Below, piece by piece: positions 5,142 through 24,067 of a stretch of DNA of 64,000 bases. The DNA comes from Selaginella tamariscina (lineage: Eukaryota; Streptophyta; Lycopodiopsida; Selaginellales; Selaginellaceae). Positions within the stretch are counted from its first letter, which is position 1. Each line of letters begins with the position of its first letter. Where the stretch lies: NCBI GenBank assembly GCA_003024785.1, contig PUQB01000001.1, forward strand, positions 379,501-443,500, given 5' to 3'. The notes beneath the pieces are model-generated. The model was not told the origin of the DNA. It made no database searches and saw only the letters and a list, made by a program, of their open reading frames with translations. Both the position numbers and the translations under genes were made by a program.

Positions 5142-5606
5142 AACCTGTATAGCATTCACGAATGCAAAGCTGCCGTTTGGTGTTGTTGCCGGCCGGTCAA
5201 CAAAGAGAGAATATTCTGCTACAGTGTAAGCTCGAGATTCTATCGGATTTCCAGACATGAGAGTGTAGGATCCAACAAGAACCGACGGAGACTGTCAACA
5301 GGTGACAGCGGGAAAGCAAAAGAATTAAGCTCCCTCATCTGCACTCTGGCAGTGAGATATGGGATTTGAGAGGGAAGATTGGGATTCTGGGTGGATTTGT
5401 TAACTGGGATTCCTGCAGAAGTGAATGTGGGATTGTCTAGGGATTCACCTTGGCATTTCTGGTTAGTGTCGGAACTCGTGGTGTTTAATGGCGATCCACA
5501 ATCTATTGAATATGATACTTGGTACCCACTGTGCTAATGCTGTGTAGAATGTGAGGAGGATTACAACGGGTACAGGGGGAAGCCTCTTCTTCCTCCTCTC
5601 CGCCAT
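3926..5606 (-). pseudogene. Malectin-like receptor kinase ectodomain fragment
   Basis: Reverse-strand partial copy of the receptor kinase at 22683-26881. It starts at the same MAERRKKR start region (about 5606) and runs through the SIDCGSP segment, the TPNGSFAFVNAIQ segment (5150-5190), the [21 protein letters not shown] exon (4380-4460), the [20 protein letters not shown] exon (4180-4290) and [11 protein letters not shown] (3960-4015). It stops there, with no TM or kinase region, and continues straight into IMP4 intron/exon sequence. Many indels and stops. Introns keep the (GT)n/(GA)n tracts of the parent. It is a relic of a chimeric duplication. Confidence 0.8.
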
Positions 5607-6704: not shown

Positions 6705-7250
6705 GACACTCACCTCTTAGGCGGAAGCAGTCTTTTCAGTGGTGTAACAATTGGTATTGTTACATTGAGTTCAATGTTACTGCTCTTGCCTTTAGCTAGT
6801 GTAAAGCTATTCAAAGAGAAGTATCTTCCAGCTCTGCATTTAGCGTGTTTATGCTTGATAGTTGGGAACATACTTCATGCTTTAGCAGATAAAGCAAGTT
6901 TCCTTTACCTGATTCTCATTGGTAGAATGGTGAATGGGATCGGTTTTACTAGATGGTTCTTTGTTAAAAATATTGTACAGATTCTCGATTGGTAAATGTG
7001 AACAAGCGCACCATGTGCACAAGTTTATTAGTTTTGTCTCAGACTTTAGGCATGGTAGCAGGTCCAATCCTTGGTGGTCAGCTTGCTAAAATTCCGATCA
7101 ATACTTCAGTGTTCAATAAGCTTACTATACCAGGCTGGTTCATGACTTGCATTTGGTCTTTACTTTGGATCTTAATAAAACTATGGTTCAACGAAGTCAA
7201 AACTTTTGAAGCTCCAAGTGTCTCACAGCTTGAAGCTATAAGTGCAGTAG
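6705..7250 (+). pseudogene. Major facilitator (SPX-MFS-like) gene, 5' part, interrupted
   Basis: After a ttacag acceptor at 6704 an open exon encodes hydrophobic MFS segments: GGSSLFSGVTIGIVTLSSM, a helix pair ending in LYLILIGRMVNGIG (the conserved GR..xGxG loop), then LVLSQTLGMVAGPILGG and LTIPGWFMTCIWSLLW. These resemble the MFS half of plant SPX-MFS vacuolar phosphate transporters and relatives. A frame break lies between about 6950 and 6990. The exon is cut at 7250 (EAISAV) by the transposon and resumes at 16154. No upstream SPX or first-helix exon was found, so the gene may already have been a fragment. Confidence 0.6.
7246..7250. repeat. Target site duplication, left copy (AGTAG)
   Basis: AGTAG directly before the left terminal GGGG. 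With the preceding C it could be CAGTAG, depending on how the terminal G/C run is divided. It is repeated at 16154-16158. Removing the element and one copy restores the MFS exon frame EAISAVE up to a gtattt donor. Confidence 0.75.
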
Positions 7251-7300
7251 GGGGCACGGCGAAATTCGAGCGCAGGTCAACGAGCTTGACCTAGATTTCC
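7251..7300 (+). repeat. Left terminal inverted repeat (imperfect)
   Basis: Begins GGGGCACGGC and shares the GGGG start, TCGAGCGCAG, a CGAGC block and GATTTCCG with the reverse complement of 16105-16153. The identity is patchy, so the repeat is diverged. It is followed at once by the GAATATTC cluster. Confidence 0.7.
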
Positions 7301-7438
7301 GAATATTCTTGAATATTCCGTTGTTCCGTACGATTTCCGTCTAGATATCCTCGAATATTCTGTACGGAAATTTTTCGTACTGCCAAGTGTACACACAATT
7401 GGACCTTCCAAAATTTTCAAGAATATTCTAGAATATTC
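7301..7438. promoter_or_regulatory. Left subterminal GAATATTC cluster (HSE-like)
   Basis: Five copies of the palindrome GAATATTC at 7301, 7311, 7353, 7421 and 7431. The first pair and the last pair are each spaced by 2 nt, giving GAAnnTTCnnGAAnnTTC, which is the ideal four-unit heat-shock element pattern. Three more copies lie at the other end (16049, 16070, 16089). Being subterminal at both ends, they may instead be transposase binding sites. Confidence 0.55.
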
Positions 7439-7615
7439 TAGTGCGGCGGCCGCATACAAAATATGGTAGTATATTTTTGTTGTATTTAAAGAAAATATAT
7501 GTTAAATTACTTAAAAATATGCTAACATAAAATTACCATTAAAATTTATATTGAAAATTATAAGTTTGAAATAACAAATATAAAACCGAAGCTGTTTGAA
7601 AACAAACCAAACACA

Positions 7616-10600
7616 CTAAATAGATGGTGGAGGATGGAGGTTCCTTGGTAGCATCAATAAAGAACTTAGTTCACGGGGTGCAAGTGTACGACGTTGCAAA
7701 TGCTTGACAACTCGAGGATCAGCTCCCAGTACACGCTTGTAAACAAAATACATATGTTTGCAAGGCACCCACTGACGACCATTGCAGAACTCCGAGCATG
7801 AACAAGATGGTGCGCTACAAATGACAACCCAAGCAGATGTATGGTCGTTGTCACATACTCTGAAGCGAATGCATGTTGGAGGATCAACCACGTCAACTTC
7901 TGCGACATATGCTCCCAACGTCAAACATGCTTCAAAACTTACCTGTTGTTTCTTAGACATCCCTAAAGGTGTTCTTGTTGCACGACCACTTGCAGGAACA
8001 GGAGGTCCACGAAATTGTGCAGGGGGTGTTGAAAATCCAGTGACTCCAACAGGAACTGAAGGAACATGAGGTGTTGAAAAACCTGGCACTCCTGCATGAG
8101 CTGAAGGAAGCCCAGCTAGCATAAAACCTGATCTTGCCAGATCATTGATCTCCATTGCTATCAGCTTCGTGCCCACTTGAACTTTCCAAACCGAGGTAGA
8201 AGCTGGCGGAGAAACAATAGTTGGTCTTGGATGTCTGTTGCAAAGCATGTTTGTTGGACAAAAATACATCATTTGTGAGCGAAAGCATTCTTCACCAGTT
8301 TCTTTGTCATTGTATCTGATCCTTCCAAAAAAACAAGGAGCAGCCACTCGATTACCACTAGGACTGATCTTTTTGTCACAAGCACTCCACTGACCTCCTG
8401 AAGAGGGAAAGCCTGCCAGACATTTCACAGAACTTCTTTCACCACATCTTCTAATCGCCCATTGTCCAGGTGTAACATCTTGTTCTTCAACCAGAACATA
8501 TTCTTCATGTTCTTCTGCAAGTTGAAAATCCAATCGTCGCTTCCGTCTACACTGTGTTGGAATAACCTGTTCACTATAGAAGATGTCCGGTCGGTGGGAT
8601 CGTTCAGCCTCTGACCCCATATTTCTTTGCACAGTGCGATGTTCAACATTCGTGGCAGCCACAAAAGCAGTATCCTGCATGCTTGATGGAGCAACATCTT
8701 CAACTAAGTCGATGATAACCTTTGCTGTAGGTGTTGTTGAGTTAGCATTTGACATTCTTCTCTCGAACCTTGCTGAGAGCTCCTCTGAAGTCGGCCCGGA
8801 ACCACTATACCTTCCATCTCTAAAAGCCTTCACAAGAGCACATTGTCGCACTGATTCAGTCAGGTCGTGGATTGTAGCTTGGTACAATGAAATGTATTTT
8901 GAATCTCTAGCCCTCCTCCATCTTCCGTGAACAGACTCCGACTGGTTTGTCATGGGCACAACCCTTGCAGCATTCTCCGGCATGCTTTCAAGAACAACAT
9001 TTGAAATATGATTCTTCTGTCTTTCCCACCATGAAAACCACGTCTGCATAACTCCAACATCCTTCACATTTTCATTCCAAAAGCGGAAAAGATTATTTTC
9101 AATTTCTTCACGATCAGTTGTTGATGTGGCTGTTGGCCATGATCTCAAAAGTTGAAGATGTTGTTGTTGATGTTCAAGAGGGACCCACTTCCTTGTCACA
9201 CGTTGTATGGCTTGTTCATAGTGAAAGATACAGCTCCGTTCACGTCCAGGAATTTCTTGGCCATTAAAGAACACATTCCTAATTGCTTGCCAGATCGCTC
9301 CTGCTTCATCGGACATAAACCCAGCGAACTGCACATTGTAGATTCCCTTCTCGGAACAGACATCCAACATAGCACGAAAAAACTTCTCCACAGCTCCAGC
9401 CGTTTGTCTCTTCATGTCACCATAAGCAATGGTGGATAATCGGCGCACACTATAAAATAATCAAAGAGTTAAGCAAACAACAAAAAGATAACATCTTACT
9501 TTGGGTCGTAAACATGCAATGCCAGAGTGATCCACTTATCAACAACACGGTGTGTGTGATCAAGTAGAACCCAACTCTTCTGCAAAGGGCCAAGAGGAGG
9601 TTGGCACATCCTTACATAATCGATTCCAGAACCTGGCCCTGAAACCGTCATCTTAAAAACTAATGCCTGGTCGTCTGAACCACGGAAATTCATCCCAGGA
9701 TAGTGAATCACGTGGATGAATGGGATAGACAACCTTCGTTTCAGCTCCAATAATCCATCAATATTCTCTGGCATTTCAGCAGCAGTTCTCTTTGCGGACG
9801 CTACCCATTGACGAACTCTGCATCAAAGGTATTATCAAAGAATGCTCAGCACAAAGTAAAACTCTAATTGTACCTTCGATTGTTTGATAATGGTTGCAAA
9901 TGATCCATGAGCTTATCCCAACTTCCAGGCTCAGAATTATCTAATAGAAACCAAAGATAGCATCTTTACATGCTGCCATTTCGATGACTCTTGGACTAGC
10001 TCTGGGAGTTCTTTCTGTTGCATTCTGGACCGCCATATGCATTTCTTCTTTGTTCGATGCAGAAACCACCATCACCCACTGGATGTGAATGTTTTCCCTG
10101 GTGGATAAACAATCTAGTCTTGGTTATGTCGTCTGGGAAAACGCAAAACGCCACAGCATGACAAACTTCAAGGCACAATGGATTTTCTTTACAGAAAAAA
10201 CATGTCAATCCTTTTGCCAGTTTGTCGATTGAAGGTGGGGAAACAATACATCCTTTCCATTTAGTGCAGTTCGGAAATCCTGCCTTAGAAGCAGGGCAGT
10301 CCGGGTTGATACAGCAAAGGCTCCCAACACATTTGCTCCTGGACACCCTCGCTTGAAAATTCCAGTTGCTGGTCGTTCCTGCTGTCCAGGTATGTCCATC
10401 CTCTTTCCGATTCATTCCTTTGTATTTGTATTCGGAAGGAGGGAGCTCAAAAATGACATCCCCATCATACGCAATAGGCAATTCATTTGTATGAATGATC
10501 GTGGAACCCTCGATAAGAATTCTTCCCTTTTTGCAGGTATTAGAAGTGAAAAGGTTCTTCAACGTTGAGTATTCAGAGTCAGAAGCAACGACAAGCTTAA

Positions 10601-10835
10601 ACAATGGTCCTTCATCCGGTAACAAAACATATCCTGGATTATCCTTCCCTCCAGCATCTTGGTCCTCGTTTATTTCGATCTGTAAAGCAGATTGCCCATG
10701 AAGAAGTTTAAAAAGACGAACACTTTGCCAATCAAAAATGCCAAAGAACGTTCTAATCTGATTAGTAAGAATGATTCCAACACCATCTATCACAGGAACA
10801 TCGTGATCCAAATTGCCGTAAACAATCCTGGCCAT
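7616..10835 (-). CDS. Mutator-like DDE transposase (MULE)
   Basis: Three exons (10835-9874, 9817-9500, 9449-7616). The N-terminal part has a Cys/His cluster (CVGSLCCINPDC ... HQGKHSHP), like the FLYWCH/WRKY-type fingers of MULE transposases. The catalytic region shows VLLDHTHRVVD (first Asp), FAGFMSDEAGAIW (second Asp), SCIFHYEQAI (the CxxH placed between D2 and E in this superfamily) and NQSESVHG (Glu). The C-terminus carries a SWIM finger (CSCSEFC ... PCKHMYF). Exons 2 and 3 are fully open. Near 10010-10030 and near 9965 the frame of exon 1 shifts, so this copy may be inactive, misread, or spliced in a way I did not see. It should bind the element's ends and excise and insert it in the nucleus. 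Confidence 0.85.
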
Positions 10836-11512
10836 TTTGCAAGCAGTTACCACAAACGTGACAGAAAAACAACAGCATTACTTAATCATCTTTTGGTAAA
10901 TATCGGATATTACCATTTCAAAAATTCACAATCATGACTCAACGTGGGCGAATATTTAATTCAAGGAAACGTATAGATCTTAGATGCTAATATAGTATAG
11001 CACTTCACGTAGAGATAGAGCAATCTTTATTGTCTTTTAAATAAATGTGTGTCTAATCTACATTCATCTGACATATTTATTTATGACTTGTTTATATTCT
11101 GTTAATTTATTTATTATAATTATATAGTTATTTGATCCAGTATTTTATCAAATGTAGATGTTGATTAATACTTGCTCCGCTACCAATTGTCAATTATAAA
11201 TACATATTTTTACACGAATATTTATTTAATTATATAATAATATGTTTTTTTAACATACAAATTTTTACTTAAATATGTGTTTGTATTTGTATCCTTTTAT
11301 ATAGTATGTTATTTATCGTAAGTATTATATATACTGTTGTATGGTTTAATTAAACACAGTTTTATAGTTAAGGGTCAAAGGGTTAAGTGTTAGATTTTAG
11401 GGTAAAGGTTCAGGACTACCCATTCTTCTTCTCCATTCTCCATTGTTGAGAGAGGGCACTTTTGTTCTTTTTTTTGCGGCGACAAGAGGCTAGTGTGAGC
11501 GTCACGGCGACA
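10836..11512. promoter_or_regulatory. Divergent promoter region of the transposon
   Basis: AT-rich stretch between the transposase ATG (reverse) and the first exon of the methyltransferase gene (forward). It has TATA-like runs near 11300-11330 and agggttaag/tagggtaaagg motifs near 11375-11405. No ORF is supported. Its position makes it the only candidate control region for both genes. Confidence 0.5.
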
Positions 11513-12211
11513 TGGCTACAGGTAAAATCTTATATATGTGTATAGTAATTTCTGTGAATGTATGTGCAAATTCAGTAGGATTTCTTTGTATTCACAAACG
11601 CACGCGCGTGTGCACACACACACACACCTCCGACGCATGAGTTATTGCCGATTTCGGCAAACACACACACACACACACACACACATTTCCTGCCAATTCG
11701 GGCAGGAAATGTGTGTGTGTGTGTGTGTGTGTGTTTGCGCACACACATAAATAACATTTTACACACGTATGATTATACAACATTAGACTTGTATACATGT
11801 GTGTGTGTATATATAAATATATATATTTAAATACATACTTAAAAAGACTTATATATATATATATATGTATGTATGTATGTATAAGTATATGAATTTAAGA
11901 CTTGTATATATGAGATGATGCTTTTTCGTCTGTATATACATGTGAAGAGATATGAATATACCCATATTCTCTCACACAGACACATCACAAAACACAAACA
12001 ACATTGCACACACACACACATAATCAACATTACACACATACACAAGGAACATTATATAGTGAGCACACACACAAACAACATTACACGTATAAATATGTGT
12101 GTGTGTGCGTGTGTGTCTATATATATTGATAGGTATACATATATAGTAAATGTGTGTCCATAAATTAAAACAACTCACACACACACACTTATCAGTTGTT
12201 GTAATTGCAGA
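11513..12211 (+). other. 5' leader intron of the ParB-methyltransferase gene, with 37-bp hairpin
   Basis: A leader exon probably ends ATGGCTACAG before a gtaaaatc donor at 11522-11523. The acceptor aattgcag precedes 12211. Splicing joins a four-codon upstream ORF that stops at once (GAA TGA), so the main start is taken as ATG 12212. The intron is mostly (AC)n/(GT)n and (TA)n. It contains a perfect inverted repeat: 11658-11694 and 11701-11737 pair over 37 bp around the 6-nt loop aattcg. Confidence 0.5.
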
Positions 12212-15200
12212 ATGAGACAAAGGCAGAGTAAGAGACTACGAGATAAATACAAGACTTTGACACTTCAAGAACATATCGTCCAAGAAGCTCTTGCAGATAT
12301 GGCTCCAAAACCTCGTGGCAAGAAAGGAGGCCGAGGCGCCAAGCAACAACTGCAACACAAAGAGATGATGCCGACGAACAATGAACCTGTGGATAGTTCG
12401 CAAGTCATTGATGAACATACTGTGGTGAGTGAATGGATGCCTAGAAATAGGGAGATTGCAGGAAGCTCTGCAGAACACGGTAATGCAGAGGAAGTACCGG
12501 ATATTGATCTTGGTAGTAAAATGTTCAATAAGAAGAGGAAACTGGATGCTCCTGAGGATGTTGCCGAATCATATGCAATTCCGGAGCGGCTGACACTTGA
12601 GGCTCCATCCAAGCTTCTTCGGGATCTTGTTATTCGGTATGACACAGATATTGACACATCGCTACAAGGACGAGACCACTACGTTCCAGTTGAGCTTGGT
12701 GAGCCTCCGCGTATCCCGGTTCACAGGTTGCTCCCACACCAACGTTTGAGGAATGTCACTAAGGACGGCGTGAAAGACCTTGTTGGATGGATTAGAGCTG
12801 AAGGATTTTACCAGGAGACGTCAGTGTTCACCTTATCTTTCGGACCACAGCTGAGTGCAGACGAACGCCGAAGTTGGAATGAGTCAGAAGCACAGGTCGA
12901 TAGAGAGTTTGAAGCGGATTTGCATAAGCCAGCATTTTCTGCATGGTATCGATTTCTGAAAGATGCAAAGTTTCTGGTGTGGGATGGGAATCATCGTCGG
13001 GTTGCTTTGAACACTTTGCTTGCTGAAGAGCCAGGTTTGAAATGGACTTTGCGTGTACGTGCAACACTCATAGCATCCACAGTGCAAGAGGAGAAGAGAC
13101 TAATCGCTGCTTGCAATCGGTTGAATGAGTAAGTGACTTGTTTGTTTCATTATTTAAATACTAAATAAATGTTGTTTTGTTTTGCAGAGCAACTGCTCGT
13201 GTGGTTCCTACAACAATCATTCACACCTTGCAGTTCTTACGGAATTGTTGTGTGAAGTCTGCAGATCTTTCTACCGATCATGTTCTTCGCGGGATGCCGG
13301 AGGAAGATAGAAAAGCTGTGGAAGTGTGGAGATCGAACAGAAAAGAAGACGTTTGGTACGAGTATCCAAAGACGACATTGGTGAAGATTTTTTGGGAGGT
13401 AATCTTTTCTTCTTCTTTTGACTGTTTTTTGATTTTCGGTTTCTTTTGCAGAATCAACTGAAGCGACAAATCGCTACAAAACTTGCGAACAGAAAACCAA
13501 ACCAGACAGAATCTCAGATCCTCTCCAGCGTTTACAAGACATTCACAGTTCGGATGAACAAATTCCTCACCATTGCTGATCCGGCGGTCGGTGAAGATTG
13601 GTTCAAGGCGATCACAGATATCACTATCAAACCATCAACGAAGCAAATAACTCTGGAGAAGCTTCAAATGCTCGCGAAGTCCCAGCTTCCTTCCAACGTC
13701 AAGGTTGATATCCTTGGAAAGCTTGTGCACATTCAAGAACGTGGCGTTCTTGAGAAGCTGGTGAACATGACGGAGAAAGACAAGAAGGAAGGTGTCACCG
13801 GCTGGCCTGACAAGGACTTCATCAAGTTTTTGCACATCTTTACTTACTGGTTCCAGGTAATTTAATATTTATATTTTTCATTTTTATTCGTTTTATCGTG
13901 CCAGGTCGCGGAGGCAGCTAAAGAGCTTTTGGTCGAGCATGTAGAGGAGTTCATGACATGGTATATGAAGATGCACAATGAAATTAAGTTGGATATGTAC
14001 CAGAACATGCTCGAGAACAAGGAGTTCGGTGCGACAATTCCACCTCCTCGACTATTTGAGCTGGAAAAATCTGCAAAAAGAATGGCATTCAGGCAAGTTT
14101 TTTTTTTGTTTCTTTACAGATTTTTATCTATTTTTACAGGTTTTTAAAATGGAAGAACGATGCACTCCCTGAAGATTTCAAAGAGTGGATGGATGTTACC
14201 AAGGATTCTAGCATGTGGAGCCGGTTGTTACGTGATATCAGTGATTACGAAGTGGAACACTGTCCTTTCTGGCTGGATTTCCTTCCTGGTGACTGTCCCG
14301 AATGGGAGATGGCCAGCTATAAGATACACAAGGATGATCGGCGAGAGCTATTATGGAAGAACGACAATGCTGCAAGGAAGCTCCATGTGAAGATGGATAT
14401 CAGGTATGCTAGATCGGCGAGCAAGGTCAGCAAGGGACAAGCTTCTTCTTCAGCCCCATCCTTCATCTCGGCTGGATTGGAAGAAGATGATATGTTGAGG
14501 ATGGTGATGCCTGAGAAGGGAAATGGAAGCTGGGAAATCATTCATGCAGATTCAGAGAACCTTGCAGTCCAGTACTTCAAAGCCGGAAGGCCTTTTCCGT
14601 CAGGATTGAAGGAGCTTGAGGATTGGATCGTGAGTCACAAGTCAAGTTGGACTATTCATGTGTTTGGTGCGAAGCCTCCACCAAAATGCATCCAGGGAGC
14701 TGTTGATCTCGTTGTCATCGACCCGCCTACCGGATGCGTTGCTGAGGCAGGCGGGATGGTGGATCAATACACGAAGTTCTCGGATGCTTTGCTGAAGAAC
14801 TTGGTGAACCTTGCTTTCGGGATATTAGACAGAGCTGGCCATGTGGTAGTGTTTGTGCTACCGGATGATGTTCTAGCTTTGAAGAACACTGCAGAAACTT
14901 GCAAGCTAAAGTTTCTGCAGATGAGTTATGTGCACACGACAAAGTCATGGGGATACCGTTTCTCTAGAAAGGTAATTCTTCTTTTTGAGAATGTCATTTT
15001 TTAATGTTTATTTTTTCAGGAAAGCATCATTGCCATGTGTATTTTTGGTTCCCCCTACTCTAAGGTTGCCAAGAACAAGGAGATCTTGGACACTCGCTAC
15101 ACTCTTCTTTTTGATGAGCCAGAAGATTTCCAGCTCCCATGGTATAATGTTGTTTGTTATTTCTCATGTTCTAATATTGTAACTTTCAGGATTTCAATTG

Positions 15201-15844
15201 GCCCGAAATCTCCCAAGTTGTTTGCGATGCTAGTGGAGAAGCTCACAAAGCCTGGTGGAACTGTTGTGGATCTAACAGTGGGAACCGGTGCTAGTATTCT
15301 TGCAGCTTTTCACACAGGGAGACATGGTTATGGAATCGACATCAACAAGGATCTGGTTTTAGCAGCCAGAGATGTCTTCAGGAAGGTCATTCCAAGTGTT
15401 ACAGCAGCTGAAGGTGGTGGGGATGATCAAGTTGTTTCCATGATTACTCCTTTTGATGAGTGGAAGAGGGCCATGGAAACAGAAGCACAGGATTTGCCTT
15501 TGGCTAGCGACAACGATGGAGACCAGGATCCGCCTTCTCGAAACGACAAGGATGTTGTTACGGAGAAGTCCGTGGAGCACAACGACGAGTCATCAGATGA
15601 GTCAGCAGAAGAGAGATCATACGAGTCATCAGATGATGAGTGAGATTTGTTTTATCATTTCTTTGGTTTTAAACTTTAATATGTTTTCAGTATTGTTCTA
15701 CCAGACTACGCTAATCAGATGGCAAAGAAAATGGTTGAAGAGTTCGAAGTTTACGACAGACAGATTTTGGAGAAACGTTCACGACACCGTAACAATGCAT
15801 TCATTAACGACGAGGCACTGGCTGGTGGAAACGAGTCTTCATGA
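12212..15844 (+). CDS. ParB-like domain plus beta-class DNA methyltransferase
   Basis: Eight exons, 12212-13128, 13188-13398, 13452-13856, 13905-14092, 14140-14971, 15020-15141, 15190-15639 and 15691-15844, splice without a break into about 1092 residues. All introns are GT-AG except the fourth (gcaagt donor, GC-AG). A lysine/arginine-rich N-terminus comes first. A ParB/sulfiredoxin-like domain follows at about 160-295 (RIPVHRLLPHQ at 167-177; DGNHRR at 258-263). A middle region of unknown fold comes next. The methyltransferase fold has motif IV at about 768 (VVIDPPTG) and motif I at about 919 (VVDLTVGTGAS), followed by GYGIDINKD for SAM binding. This IV-before-I order is the permuted beta class typical of bacterial and phage N4-cytosine/N6-adenine enzymes. 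The usual DPPY/F/W aromatic is Thr, so activity is uncertain. An acidic Ser/Asp/Glu tail follows. It lies inside the transposon ends. Confidence 0.8.
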
Positions 15845-16048
15845 TTGAGTTATGTTTTTATTGTAATTTTTATTTAGTTTGATGCGGTATTTATATAAAA
15901 ATATAATTATAGTTATAAATATAAATATTAAAAAAATAAAAACATAAATATAAATATAAATATATAAATATATATGTCAGATTAACCCCCAAATTTGTGA
16001 AACTTTGACACATTACCGTGCCGCCATGATTGCCCGCCCGCCGCACCA

Positions 16049-16096
16049 GAATATTCTTTATATGAAAACGAATATTCTGTACGGAATGGAATATTC
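16049..16096. promoter_or_regulatory. Right subterminal GAATATTC cluster
   Basis: GAATATTC at 16049, 16070 and 16089, the latter two flanking TGTACGGAAT, mirroring TGTACGGAAA beside the left-end copy at 7353. The shared flank shows this is a designed subterminal repeat, not chance AT-richness. Confidence 0.55.
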
Positions 16097-16104
16097 CGGT
16101 ATGA

Positions 16105-16153
16105 CGGAAATCCGTACGCTCGGCAAACTGCGCTCGAGGAAATGTCAAACCCC
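16105..16153 (-). repeat. Right terminal inverted repeat (imperfect)
   Basis: Read on the reverse strand it begins GGGGTTTGAC and carries TCGAGCGCAG, CCGAGC and GGATTTCCG in the same order as the left end. Inner to it lie three GAATATTC motifs. Confidence 0.7.
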
Positions 16154-16158
16154 AGTAG
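16154..16158. repeat. Target site duplication, right copy (AGTAG)
   Basis: Direct repeat of 7246-7250, immediately after the terminal CCCC of the element and continuing into the interrupted MFS exon (GTA GAG, then the gtattt donor). Confidence 0.75.
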
Positions 16159-16848
16159 AGGTATTTAGTGTTTTAACTTGTGTGTGTGTGTGTGCACGTG
16201 TGATTACACACACACAATGTTGACACAGTACTTGGTGTGTAGGACCCTGAAGATCCAGCACCACCACCACATGTGGAGAAGTTTACAAGAAGGCAGATAC
16301 TGGTTGCATGTTTCATGAGCTACACAGCATTTACAACCTTCTTTGAGCTCGGCTCGAATCGGCAATTCCCTTGTACACACGCCACGCCTTCCACTATAAT
16401 GCCTGGGATTCAGGTAACTTCATAGGAATAGTCGGGCTTGGAAGTGTAGTAGTGGTTGCTAGTATGCCATTCCTAGCCCGCAGATTACAAGATAGAATCT
16501 GGCTTTTACTTATAGGGTTGGCGGGAATATTAGTGAACGTTGTGTTAGTTAATGGTAAGATGAACATCTGGGCATATAGAGGTCAGTGGTTCCTAGTATG
16601 TGCCGGTTTCATCAAGCATTACATTGTCTTTATTATCGAAGAATCTTCCTGATCGTTTATCTGATAAGGCAGCTTTGGCTATTCAACTTTCAAACTACTT
16701 TGGCCGGTTCATCGGAGCTACTTGGGGGACAGCAGGTCCTCGAGTTGGAGACCTTGGGGTTGCTCTTGGTCAGCTCGGGGTTTGTGCTGTATCGGTTGCA
16801 GGGGTCTTTCTTCTATGGCGACTCATGCGAGCTGAGAGAGGCTAGTAC
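16159..16848 (+). pseudogene. Major facilitator gene, 3' part after the transposon
   Basis: Continues the exon cut at 7250. After GAG an intron (16161-16242, gt...tgtgtag) leads to DPEDPAPPPHVEKFTRRQ, then helices ILVACFMSYTAFTTFFELGS, GNFIGIVGLGSVVVVASMPF, IWLLLIGLAGILVNVVLV and, in another frame, LSLLSKNLPDRLSDKAA, GRFIGATWGTAGPRVGDLG and a last helix ending LLWRLMRAERG-stop. Frame breaks occur near 16350 (ELGS/ESAIPLY) and near 16605. Order and motifs match the C-terminal half of SPX-MFS type transporters. Disrupted by the insertion and the indels. Confidence 0.65.
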
Positions 16849-22540: not shown

Positions 22541-22682
22541 ATAATTAGGAAAAGTGAGTGGCAATGAAGAAGGTTGAAACACACATATTTTAATCAACTT
22601 CATTAATAAAAAAAGACGCGACAAATATATGACCGGGTATAGTTTGACTGGGATTGACTAAAATTAGGGCACATTTTGGGCG

Positions 22683-23222
22683 ATGGCGGAGAGGAGGAAG
22701 AAGAGGCTTCCCCATGTACCCGTTGTAATCCTCCTCACATTCTACACAGCATTAGCACAGTGGGTACCCAAGTATTCATATTCAATAGATTGTGGATCGC
22801 CATTAAACACCACGAGTTCCGACACTAACCAGAAATGGCAAGGTGAATCCCTAGACAATCCCACATTCACATCTGCAGGAATCCCAGTTAACACATCCAC
22901 CCAGAATCCCAATCTTCCCTCTCAAATCCCATATCTCACTGCCAGAGTGTTCGCTTCCCGATCAAACTACACATTTCCGGTCGATCCCGGTCGGTACTGG
23001 CTCAGGCTATACTTTTATCCCATTCCCGCCGGTGGGTTCGATCCGGCTCAGGCAAACTTCTCGGTTCTTGTTGGATCCTACACTCTCATGTCTGGGAATC
23101 CGATAGAATCTCGAGCTTACACTGTGGGAGAATATTCCCTTTTTGTTGACCGGCCTCAGTTGGTTCTTGTCTTTGACCCGGCAACACCAAACGGCAGCTT
23201 TGCATACGTGAATGCTATACAG

Positions 23223-23281
<59 letters not shown>

Positions 23282-24067
23282 ATATACATGACAGCCTCAC
23301 ATACAGATACCCATGCATAGCTCTTGCTGTTTTTTCTATATATCCCCTAACACACACACACAGTGTGTAGGTTAACAAGTTAAAAGACGCAAATGCATAT
23401 AGACGTGTGTGTGTCTTTATTGTATGTGTGTATGTATTACTATGTATATCATAAACACTAGAACTGATGTATTTCATTTGGTCGCACGCACGCACGCACA
23501 CTTTTGAAATTGACATATGCAAGTGGAATACAGCTAATGTCCATGCCCGAGGATGCACTTGAGGATGATATTCTTGTCGGTCAAGGGCAGACAAAATTCG
23601 GGTTCACCCACTTGGCCCTCCAAACAATGTACAGGCTCAATGTCGGTGGCGCATCGGTCAACGCAGCCAACGACAGTCAGCGCCGTCCCTGGTCAACGGA
23701 CCAATCCTTCCTCGAGGGTGCTGCTTCTGGTAGTCCCACGCAGGACATGAGTGCAGAGATCAAATACACAAAAGACGTTCCAGGTATGTATGTGGGTGTG
23801 AATATATGTGTATAAACACGTGTACGTGTTACAGTGTATATAGCCCAGCTTCTGTGTACGGAACCGGCAGGGTACTTGGCGTGTCGAATACGGTTAACAA
23901 TAACTTCCGTGTTTCTTGGAGACTGCCTGTTGACTCAAACTTTTATTACTTAATTCGTCTACATTTTGCGGAGCTCAATTTTGATAAACGTACCAGAGGA
24001 TCTTCAATGTGTATCAATAACTTAACTGCCCTAGATGGTACGTTGTGTGTGTGTGTGTGTGTGTGTG

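Follow-up and report, generated by a model that had tools for sequence, protein, structure and literature searches.

A probable Mutator-like transposon of Selaginella tamariscina with a DNA methyltransferase-like gene as a regular second component

Can a plant DNA transposon carry a methyltransferase gene, of a class familiar from prokaryotes and phages, as a working part of itself, and what would the protein do for its carrier? The question is raised by a 64,000-nucleotide stretch of the Selaginella tamariscina genome (contig PUQB01000001.1; C1:379501-443500, hereafter the window), in which a transposon copy of about 8.9 kb with two genes occupies nt 7251-16152, one base less than in the first-pass annotation of this DNA (7251-16153). 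The two divergent genes are predicted to specify a DDE/SWIM-type transposase and a 1092-residue protein that joins a ParB/DndB-like region to a beta-class methylase domain. The reading we favour, to which we give about an even chance, is that of a recently active, autonomous, cut-and-paste transposon of Mutator-like type, the second gene of which is an integral, selected part whose protein would bind and mark the element ends. It is based on mobility, copy number, the co-occurrence of the two genes, an excess of silent changes and the homology of the methylase domain.

The genome (300.7 Mb in 1391 contigs) was searched with 30-mer markers, allowing up to three mismatches; reversed-pattern controls gave 0 matches. 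The transposase marker was found at 121 places, a marker for the catalytic region of the methyltransferase at 122, and a left-end marker at 100, 54 of them exact. In every one of the 40 best-scoring right ends, out of 138 candidates, the methyltransferase marker sits 1.41-1.45 kb inward, and for 33 of these 40 a left end lies 8.0-9.05 kb away (32 found by pattern and one from a separate scoring of left ends, the best 40 of 129 candidates). The methyltransferase marker was never found on the wrong strand within the same distance band. The near-equal marker numbers and the uniform right ends bear out the first-pass annotation of a transposon that carries its own methyltransferase: the element is mobile, and the two genes belong to it regularly. 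The genome check that it proposed, for copies in which transposase, methyltransferase and both ends co-occur, found such copies, with target duplications that vary between them.

At least 56 of the 100 left ends have both gene markers in standard place and order. The remainder, among the matches listed (the first 100 of the 122 methyltransferase and 100 of the 121 transposase places), comprise 27 with the transposase only, 7 with the methyltransferase only and 10 with neither. Among the 27 left ends with the transposase only, seven were read. Methyltransferase sequence is present in six of these; it reaches the right end in C755, C816, C497 and C478 and is represented by its first part only in C578 and C793. 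The seventh (C838:313755) has a left end and the transposase marker, but the 5.3 kb read at the expected place of the methyltransferase contain no element sequence, which suggests a truncated copy or a variant lacking the methylase. These results bear on the view that the methyltransferase is a captured passenger without use, comparable to the cargo of Pack-MULEs. Mutator-like elements (MULEs) often carry pieces of host genes (PMC6446971), and a methylase-less element is what C838:313755, one of seven suspected copies, could be. We regard a passenger as very improbable, as the gene is complete, with introns and an open frame, its marker is about as frequent as that of the transposase, and the substitution patterns described below separate shared from private changes. 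A one-off capture of a single gene is argued against by the marker counts, the pairing of ends and the silent-change excess; methylase genes lying outside such ends, or ends enclosing a transposase only, had been named in advance as signs of such a capture, and both the 40 right ends and six of the seven apparent transposase-only copies point the other way.

A longer form of the element, with a left-end-to-methylase spacing of 13.6-13.9 kb in four copies, was also considered and rejected: in C793, the one copy of the four that was read, the sequence of the element breaks off within the methylase gene. After the break (7156-7800 of the read stretch) a gag-like frame was recognised by eye, probably a nested long terminal repeat retrotransposon. 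Three left ends in C516 (415575, 440857 and 581125) share the same two mismatches, and neither gene marker is listed for them; they are possibly local duplicates or a non-autonomous derivative.

The element starts with GGGGCACGG and finishes with GAAATGTCAAACCC, the latter terminus being common to other copies with differing flanks. The word CGAGCGCAG has 2 matches in the 64 kb (0.03 expected), one near each element end and in opposite orientation. The inverted ends annotated earlier are upheld to this extent, but they are short stretches only and long terminal inverted repeats (TIRs) are lacking; long TIRs are usual in MULEs, and non-TIR MULEs have been described (PMC6446971). A subterminal inverted match of 21/23 bp scored 18, against a maximum of 13 in 500 shuffles, and is not remarkable alone, because random stretch pairs from the same repeat-rich window (n=500) reached scores of up to 32, five of them at least 19. 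The palindrome GAATATTC is found eight times in the 374 bp of the ends (0.02 expected; maximum of 2 in 5000 simulations) and 0 times in the element interior.

Target duplications were assessed in 17 flank pairs, those of the window copy and of the 16 of 20 fetched left ends that have a matching right end. A flank word of 8 bp or more, usually 9, is duplicated at the junction in 11/17 pairs versus 1/272 mismatched pairs, one such word being a CT repeat and some extending into the G-rich start of the element; across copies, this agrees with the 8-11 bp target-site duplications of MULEs. The other 6/17 pairs share less: 6 bases in the window copy and in C452, 5 in C608, 4 in C550 and C391, and 0 in C923, which has lost its right terminus. 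The target duplication claimed for the window copy thus holds for the family but is imperfect here, its flanks having only CAGTAG in common. The copy had also been placed inside an exon of a major facilitator superfamily (MFS) gene. Weak MFS matches are present on both flanks (PF07690, E=0.0041 and 0.001; PF00083, E=0.0018), but all lie below the Pfam cut-offs, and one of the four flank frames has no MFS profile match. As read by eye, the insertion target lies a few bases upstream of an exon end.

The age of the family was judged from loci L001-L030, the best 30 of 98 matched rows, a choice that favours young copies. Eighteen of the 29 loci other than the window show no substitution relative to it over about 3.26 kb of the methyltransferase gene, which indicates that the last burst was very recent; five of the 18 have exonic indels, and old copies carry indels too. 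Substitutions were compared in a set of 35 loci, from which the window's own locus (L008), alignment pieces of less than 150 columns and columns near gaps had been dropped. Changes shared by at least two copies are expected to date mostly from the time of element movement and private changes mostly from after insertion. The shared changes comprise 34 replacement, 38 silent and 0 stops, and the private changes 154 replacement, 85 silent and 8 stops (Fisher p=0.013). Against a transition-only neutral share of 0.657, the shared 34:38 gives p=0.001 and the 16:16 shared by at least three copies p=0.049, while the private 154:85 is consistent with this share (p=0.36), yet below one of 0.744 (p=0.0004). 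In the first set of 30 loci the shared changes (11:13) gave p=0.0026 against 0.744, about 0.01 against the rounded transition share of 0.70, and p=0.034 against an A>G/T>C-only share.

Among strongly diverged copies the most silent-rich is C755 (about 3% diverged by substitution), with 32 replacement and 52 silent changes, none of the substitutions creating a stop (one-sided p=2e-7 relative to the neutral share for transitions only; crude ratio of replacement to silent rates, dN/dS, 0.2-0.3). Other diverged copies gave 32:29 with 1 stop (C497), 46:34 with 1 stop (C478), 68:37 with 4 stops (C536:561-564 kb), 27:17 (C1036), 17:10 (C578), 11:13 with 1 stop (C793) and 7:14 (C1114). The silent excess in C755, and in shared compared with private changes, points to purifying selection that would have kept the methyltransferase gene during the spread of the family.

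The methyltransferase frame is open over 1092 codons, with GT-AG junctions and one GC-AG, and the divergent, spliced gene of the earlier annotation was recovered, its 8 exons on the plus strand and the transposase on the minus strand. Motif IV (VVIDPPTGC, residue 765) comes before motif I (DLTVGTGAS, residue 919), which is the beta-class order. This arrangement and a match above cut-off to Pfam N6_N4_Mtase (PF01555; E=3.8e-8, 34 bits versus 26.7, residues 897-950), which covers the motif-I part only (model positions 165-218 of 221), agree with the permuted DNA methyltransferase domain proposed earlier. The phage family phrog_67, which is annotated as DNA methyltransferase, has a match extending over both domain halves (E 3e-10); phrog 3008 and 498, also among the best phage families, carry the same annotation, and the Staphylococcus phage enzyme SEP9_059 (25% identity) aligns collinearly over motifs IV and I. 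Over 55 compared residues, the motif-I region of the diverged copy C755 and that of C497 show no change, and this constancy, with the profile score, suggests that use of S-adenosylmethionine persists; changes in the region are found in the decayed copies C478, C1036 and C536:561-564 kb. Upstream of the frame, two arms of 38 nt (11657-11694 and 11701-11738) make up a perfect inverted repeat with a 6-nt loop. It consists of a CA/TG tract and TTTCCTGCC and may form a strong hairpin.

Pairings of ParB with methylases occur in prokaryotes and phages, and DndB is ParB-like. The N-terminal part of the protein had been called ParB-like, and it has the DGNHRR motif and matches DndB (PF14072) at E=0.0055 with the whole protein and 1.2e-4 with a 66-residue piece, both below cut-off (TIGR03233, E=0.017), but PF02195 (ParB N-terminal) matched neither the protein nor excised pieces and gave 0 in a genome profile search. 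The domain is accordingly termed ParB/DndB-like at best. The 394 residues between it and the methylase domain have no Pfam match.

Searches for relatives returned little. Neither the whole protein (7994 candidates scored, none with E<=0.01) nor the methylase piece (1149 candidates, none with E<=1) found a protein relative, and a scan of viral contigs gave none either. Plasmid tBLASTn gave only two matches (E=7 and 8), and phage tBLASTn gave none with an 840-residue piece, the methylase piece reaching no better than E=0.04. No close relative, with or without the fusion, was seen in the protein, viral-contig, plasmid and phage collections searched, and the idea that a known bacterium or phage recently donated the gene is unsupported.

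Two single-base indels break the transposase frame of the window copy, with one base too many near 10067 (6/6 other copies lack it) and one too few near 9950 (5/6 have it); copies C882 and C484 have an open transposase of 1037 residues over three exons. Between the window (7561-10900) and six other copies, many differences are isolated single-base indels, which suggests assembly noise, so that frame breaks in single copies are to be read with care. The indels are also what speaks for the whole locus being an artefact of assembly or contamination, such as a plant contig to which a bacterial gene had been wrongly joined, but a spliced gene present at about 120 places on many contigs, with varied flanks and target duplications, makes this hardly conceivable.

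The element is probably Mutator-like, as judged from the 9-bp duplications and a sub-threshold match to the MULE domain (PF10551; E=0.0081, model 2-96 of 99, with an excised 163-residue piece). Of the DDE/SWIM transposase in the first-pass annotation, the CxC...CxH finger pattern is in place, but PF10551 has no match to the whole transposase, and the SWIM profile reached only E=2.5 on an excised piece. A protein search with the transposase exon gave 7987 candidates, none with E<=1. A survey of MULEs (groups numbered to 50) reports duplications of 8-11 bp and SWIM fingers in many groups, and the words methyltransferase and methylase are absent from its main text (PMC6446971).

The features of the element are collected in Table 1. 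Elsewhere in the window, frames at 5240-5533 (minus strand) and 22668-23291 (plus strand), of malectin-like receptor-kinase type by eye, are almost the same over a long part of their length and are perhaps an inverted duplicate.

Table 1. Coordinates of the transposon, its ends and its two genes in the window.
Feature	Position	Strand	Remarks
Complete transposon copy	7251..16152	.	Ends common to copies with differing flanks; right/left end pairing
Left target-duplication copy, CAGTAG (shortened)	7245..7250	.	Direct reading
Right target-duplication copy, CAGTAGAGG, first 6 bases equal to left copy	16153..16161	.	Direct reading
Left end, with GGGGCACGGCGAAATTCGAGCGCAG at the terminus and five copies of the palindrome GAATATTC	7251..7460	+	
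Right end: three GAATATTC palindromes, minus-strand CGAGCGCAG, terminus GAAATGTCAAACCC	15990..16152	+	
Transposase exon 1, start M at 10835	9874..10835	-	
Transposase exon 2, first catalytic-type Asp (LLDHTHR)	9500..9817	-	Catalytic residue assigned by eye
Transposase exon 3 and stop: rest of DDE-like domain, C-terminal SWIM-type CxC...CxH finger	7616..9449	-	
Possible 5' leader intron of methyltransferase gene, CA/TG-repeat-rich	11522..12210	+	By eye
Methyltransferase gene, 8 exons, 1092 residues	12212..15844	+	
Methyltransferase exons	12212-13128, 13188-13398, 13452-13856, 13905-14092, 14140-14971, 15020-15141, 15190-15639, 15691-15844	+	
ParB/DndB-like domain, contains KFLVWDGNHRRVAL (WDGNHRRV at residue 257)	12599..13126	+	
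Beta-class N6/N4 methylase domain	14483..15409	+	Spans exons 5-7; limits approximate

Several known systems resemble this element in part. Among them are the VANDAL/Hiun MULEs of Arabidopsis, of the class to which this element probably belongs, which encode an extra protein (VANC) that acts on the epigenetic state of the element (PMC5735166) and for which 9-bp duplications and SWIM fingers are reported (PMC6446971). VANC is anti-silencing and brings about loss of DNA methylation, whereas the protein here has a DNA methylase and a ParB/DndB-like domain; the two are set apart by description and not by sequence. Eukaryotic transposons with DNA methyltransferases include DIRS retrotransposons with a Dam-like N6-adenine methylase and the retrotransposons of Symbiodinium and Klebsormidium nitens with DNA methyltransferases of the DNMT type (PMC5890265), but these carry Dam-like or C5 enzymes, unlike the N6/N4-type and ParB/DndB-like domains seen here on a DNA transposon. 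Viral Mariner elements are DNA transposons with a transposase and a methyltransferase, but the transposase is of Mariner type, the methylases are of other families and a nuclease stands beside them in a restriction-modification-like arrangement (PMC3627910). Fungal DNA transposons with TET/JBP dioxygenases and Phytophthora MuDR elements with SET likewise have an epigenetic enzyme aboard, namely dioxygenases or histone methylases, as opposed to an N6/N4-type DNA methylase (PMC12730594). The N4CMT of bdelloid rotifers is a bacterial-type amino-methyltransferase fixed in a eukaryote, but it is a host gene with a chromodomain, tied to transposon silencing and outside any transposon (PMC8885841). 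The prokaryotic and phage beta-class methylases M.MboIIA and SEP9_059 share class and motif order, although the matches obtained have only about 24-28% identity (MboIIA, E=0.65) and SEP9_059 differs at the catalytic motif. Among the matches listed from the open PubMed Central literature, no report was found in which a Mutator-like element carries either a methylase of N6/N4 type or a ParB/DndB-like fusion. The earlier suggestion of an undescribed system may hold for this combination but not for the general idea, since transposon-borne DNA methylases of eukaryotes are already published (PMC5890265, PMC3627910).

How the second protein would serve the transposon can be proposed from the conservation of the methyltransferase, the clustering of palindromes at both ends and the existence of precedents. 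The protein would bind the ends of its own element, perhaps via the eight GAATATTC palindromes, and would mark the end DNA using S-adenosylmethionine; ends so marked or occupied would then keep the element expressed or become licensed for transposition. We infer three steps in this scheme: DNA as the substrate, GAATATTC as the target and a benefit to the element. Its most specific version, a self-marking transposon in which a ParB/DndB-like-guided methylase puts N6-methyladenine or N4-methylcytosine on GAATATTC and thereby licenses transposition or blocks silencing by 5-methylcytosine, is rather unlikely on the sequence evidence.

Several observations weigh against the favoured reading. The selection signal varies with the neutral share and the copies chosen. 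Eight further GAATATTC sites lie elsewhere in the window, and those at the ends may be plain transposase-binding sites. The ParB-like assignment is below threshold, and a structure model of the region had a predicted local distance difference test score (pLDDT) of 38.6 and was left unused for fold search. The catalytic motif, moreover, is DPPT, not DPPY or DPPW, while SEP9_059 has DPPY. Active N6/N4 DNA methyltransferases follow the general pattern [DNS]PP[YFW], from which this protein departs. The amino-methylase motifs DPPY, NPPY, DPPY/F and DPPW all have an aromatic fourth residue (PMC8885841). The T is identical in 30/30 loci (29 besides the window), where DPP and the letters before it were set by the search anchor, and in the C755 copy, so that DPPT appears to be a stable feature, and it may mean that no base is methylated.

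If DPPT is inactive, the next best reading is a VANC-like DNA-binding role: the protein would be a sequence-specific regulator or anti-silencing factor in which the methylase fold is kept as a scaffold for binding DNA or cofactor. This possibility, unlikely but to be taken seriously, would suit DPPT in the copies examined, and the palindromes grouped at the two ends could be the sites bound. VANC proteins are directed to repeated motifs, and their own elements lose DNA methylation as a result (PMC5735166). The possibility is opposed by a motif I that scores above the Pfam cut-off and stays unchanged in C755 and C497. Methylation of RNA or protein instead, affecting for example host silencing factors or the transposase, would accommodate the unusual fourth motif residue, sub-threshold FtsJ matches and best NCBIfam matches that are to non-DNA families (corrin-associated, E=0.0011; arsenite, E=0.0076), far below cut-offs. 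The sole Pfam match above cut-off is, however, a DNA methylase family, the best phage families are annotated as DNA methyltransferases and the ParB/DndB-like domain suggests DNA, and we consider a non-DNA substrate improbable.

A transposon equipped with an epigenetic enzyme amounts to an experiment of nature in how silencing is evaded or exploited, and if the self-marking version is correct, a transposon-borne modification system would be at work in the nucleus of a land plant. DPPT poses the question of whether catalysis has taken a new form here or the methylase fold has become a regulator. The element is very young, has about 120 methylase-marker places and shows signs of selection, and so would allow a direct test, in a land plant, of a mark other than 5-methylcytosine that is written by the element itself.

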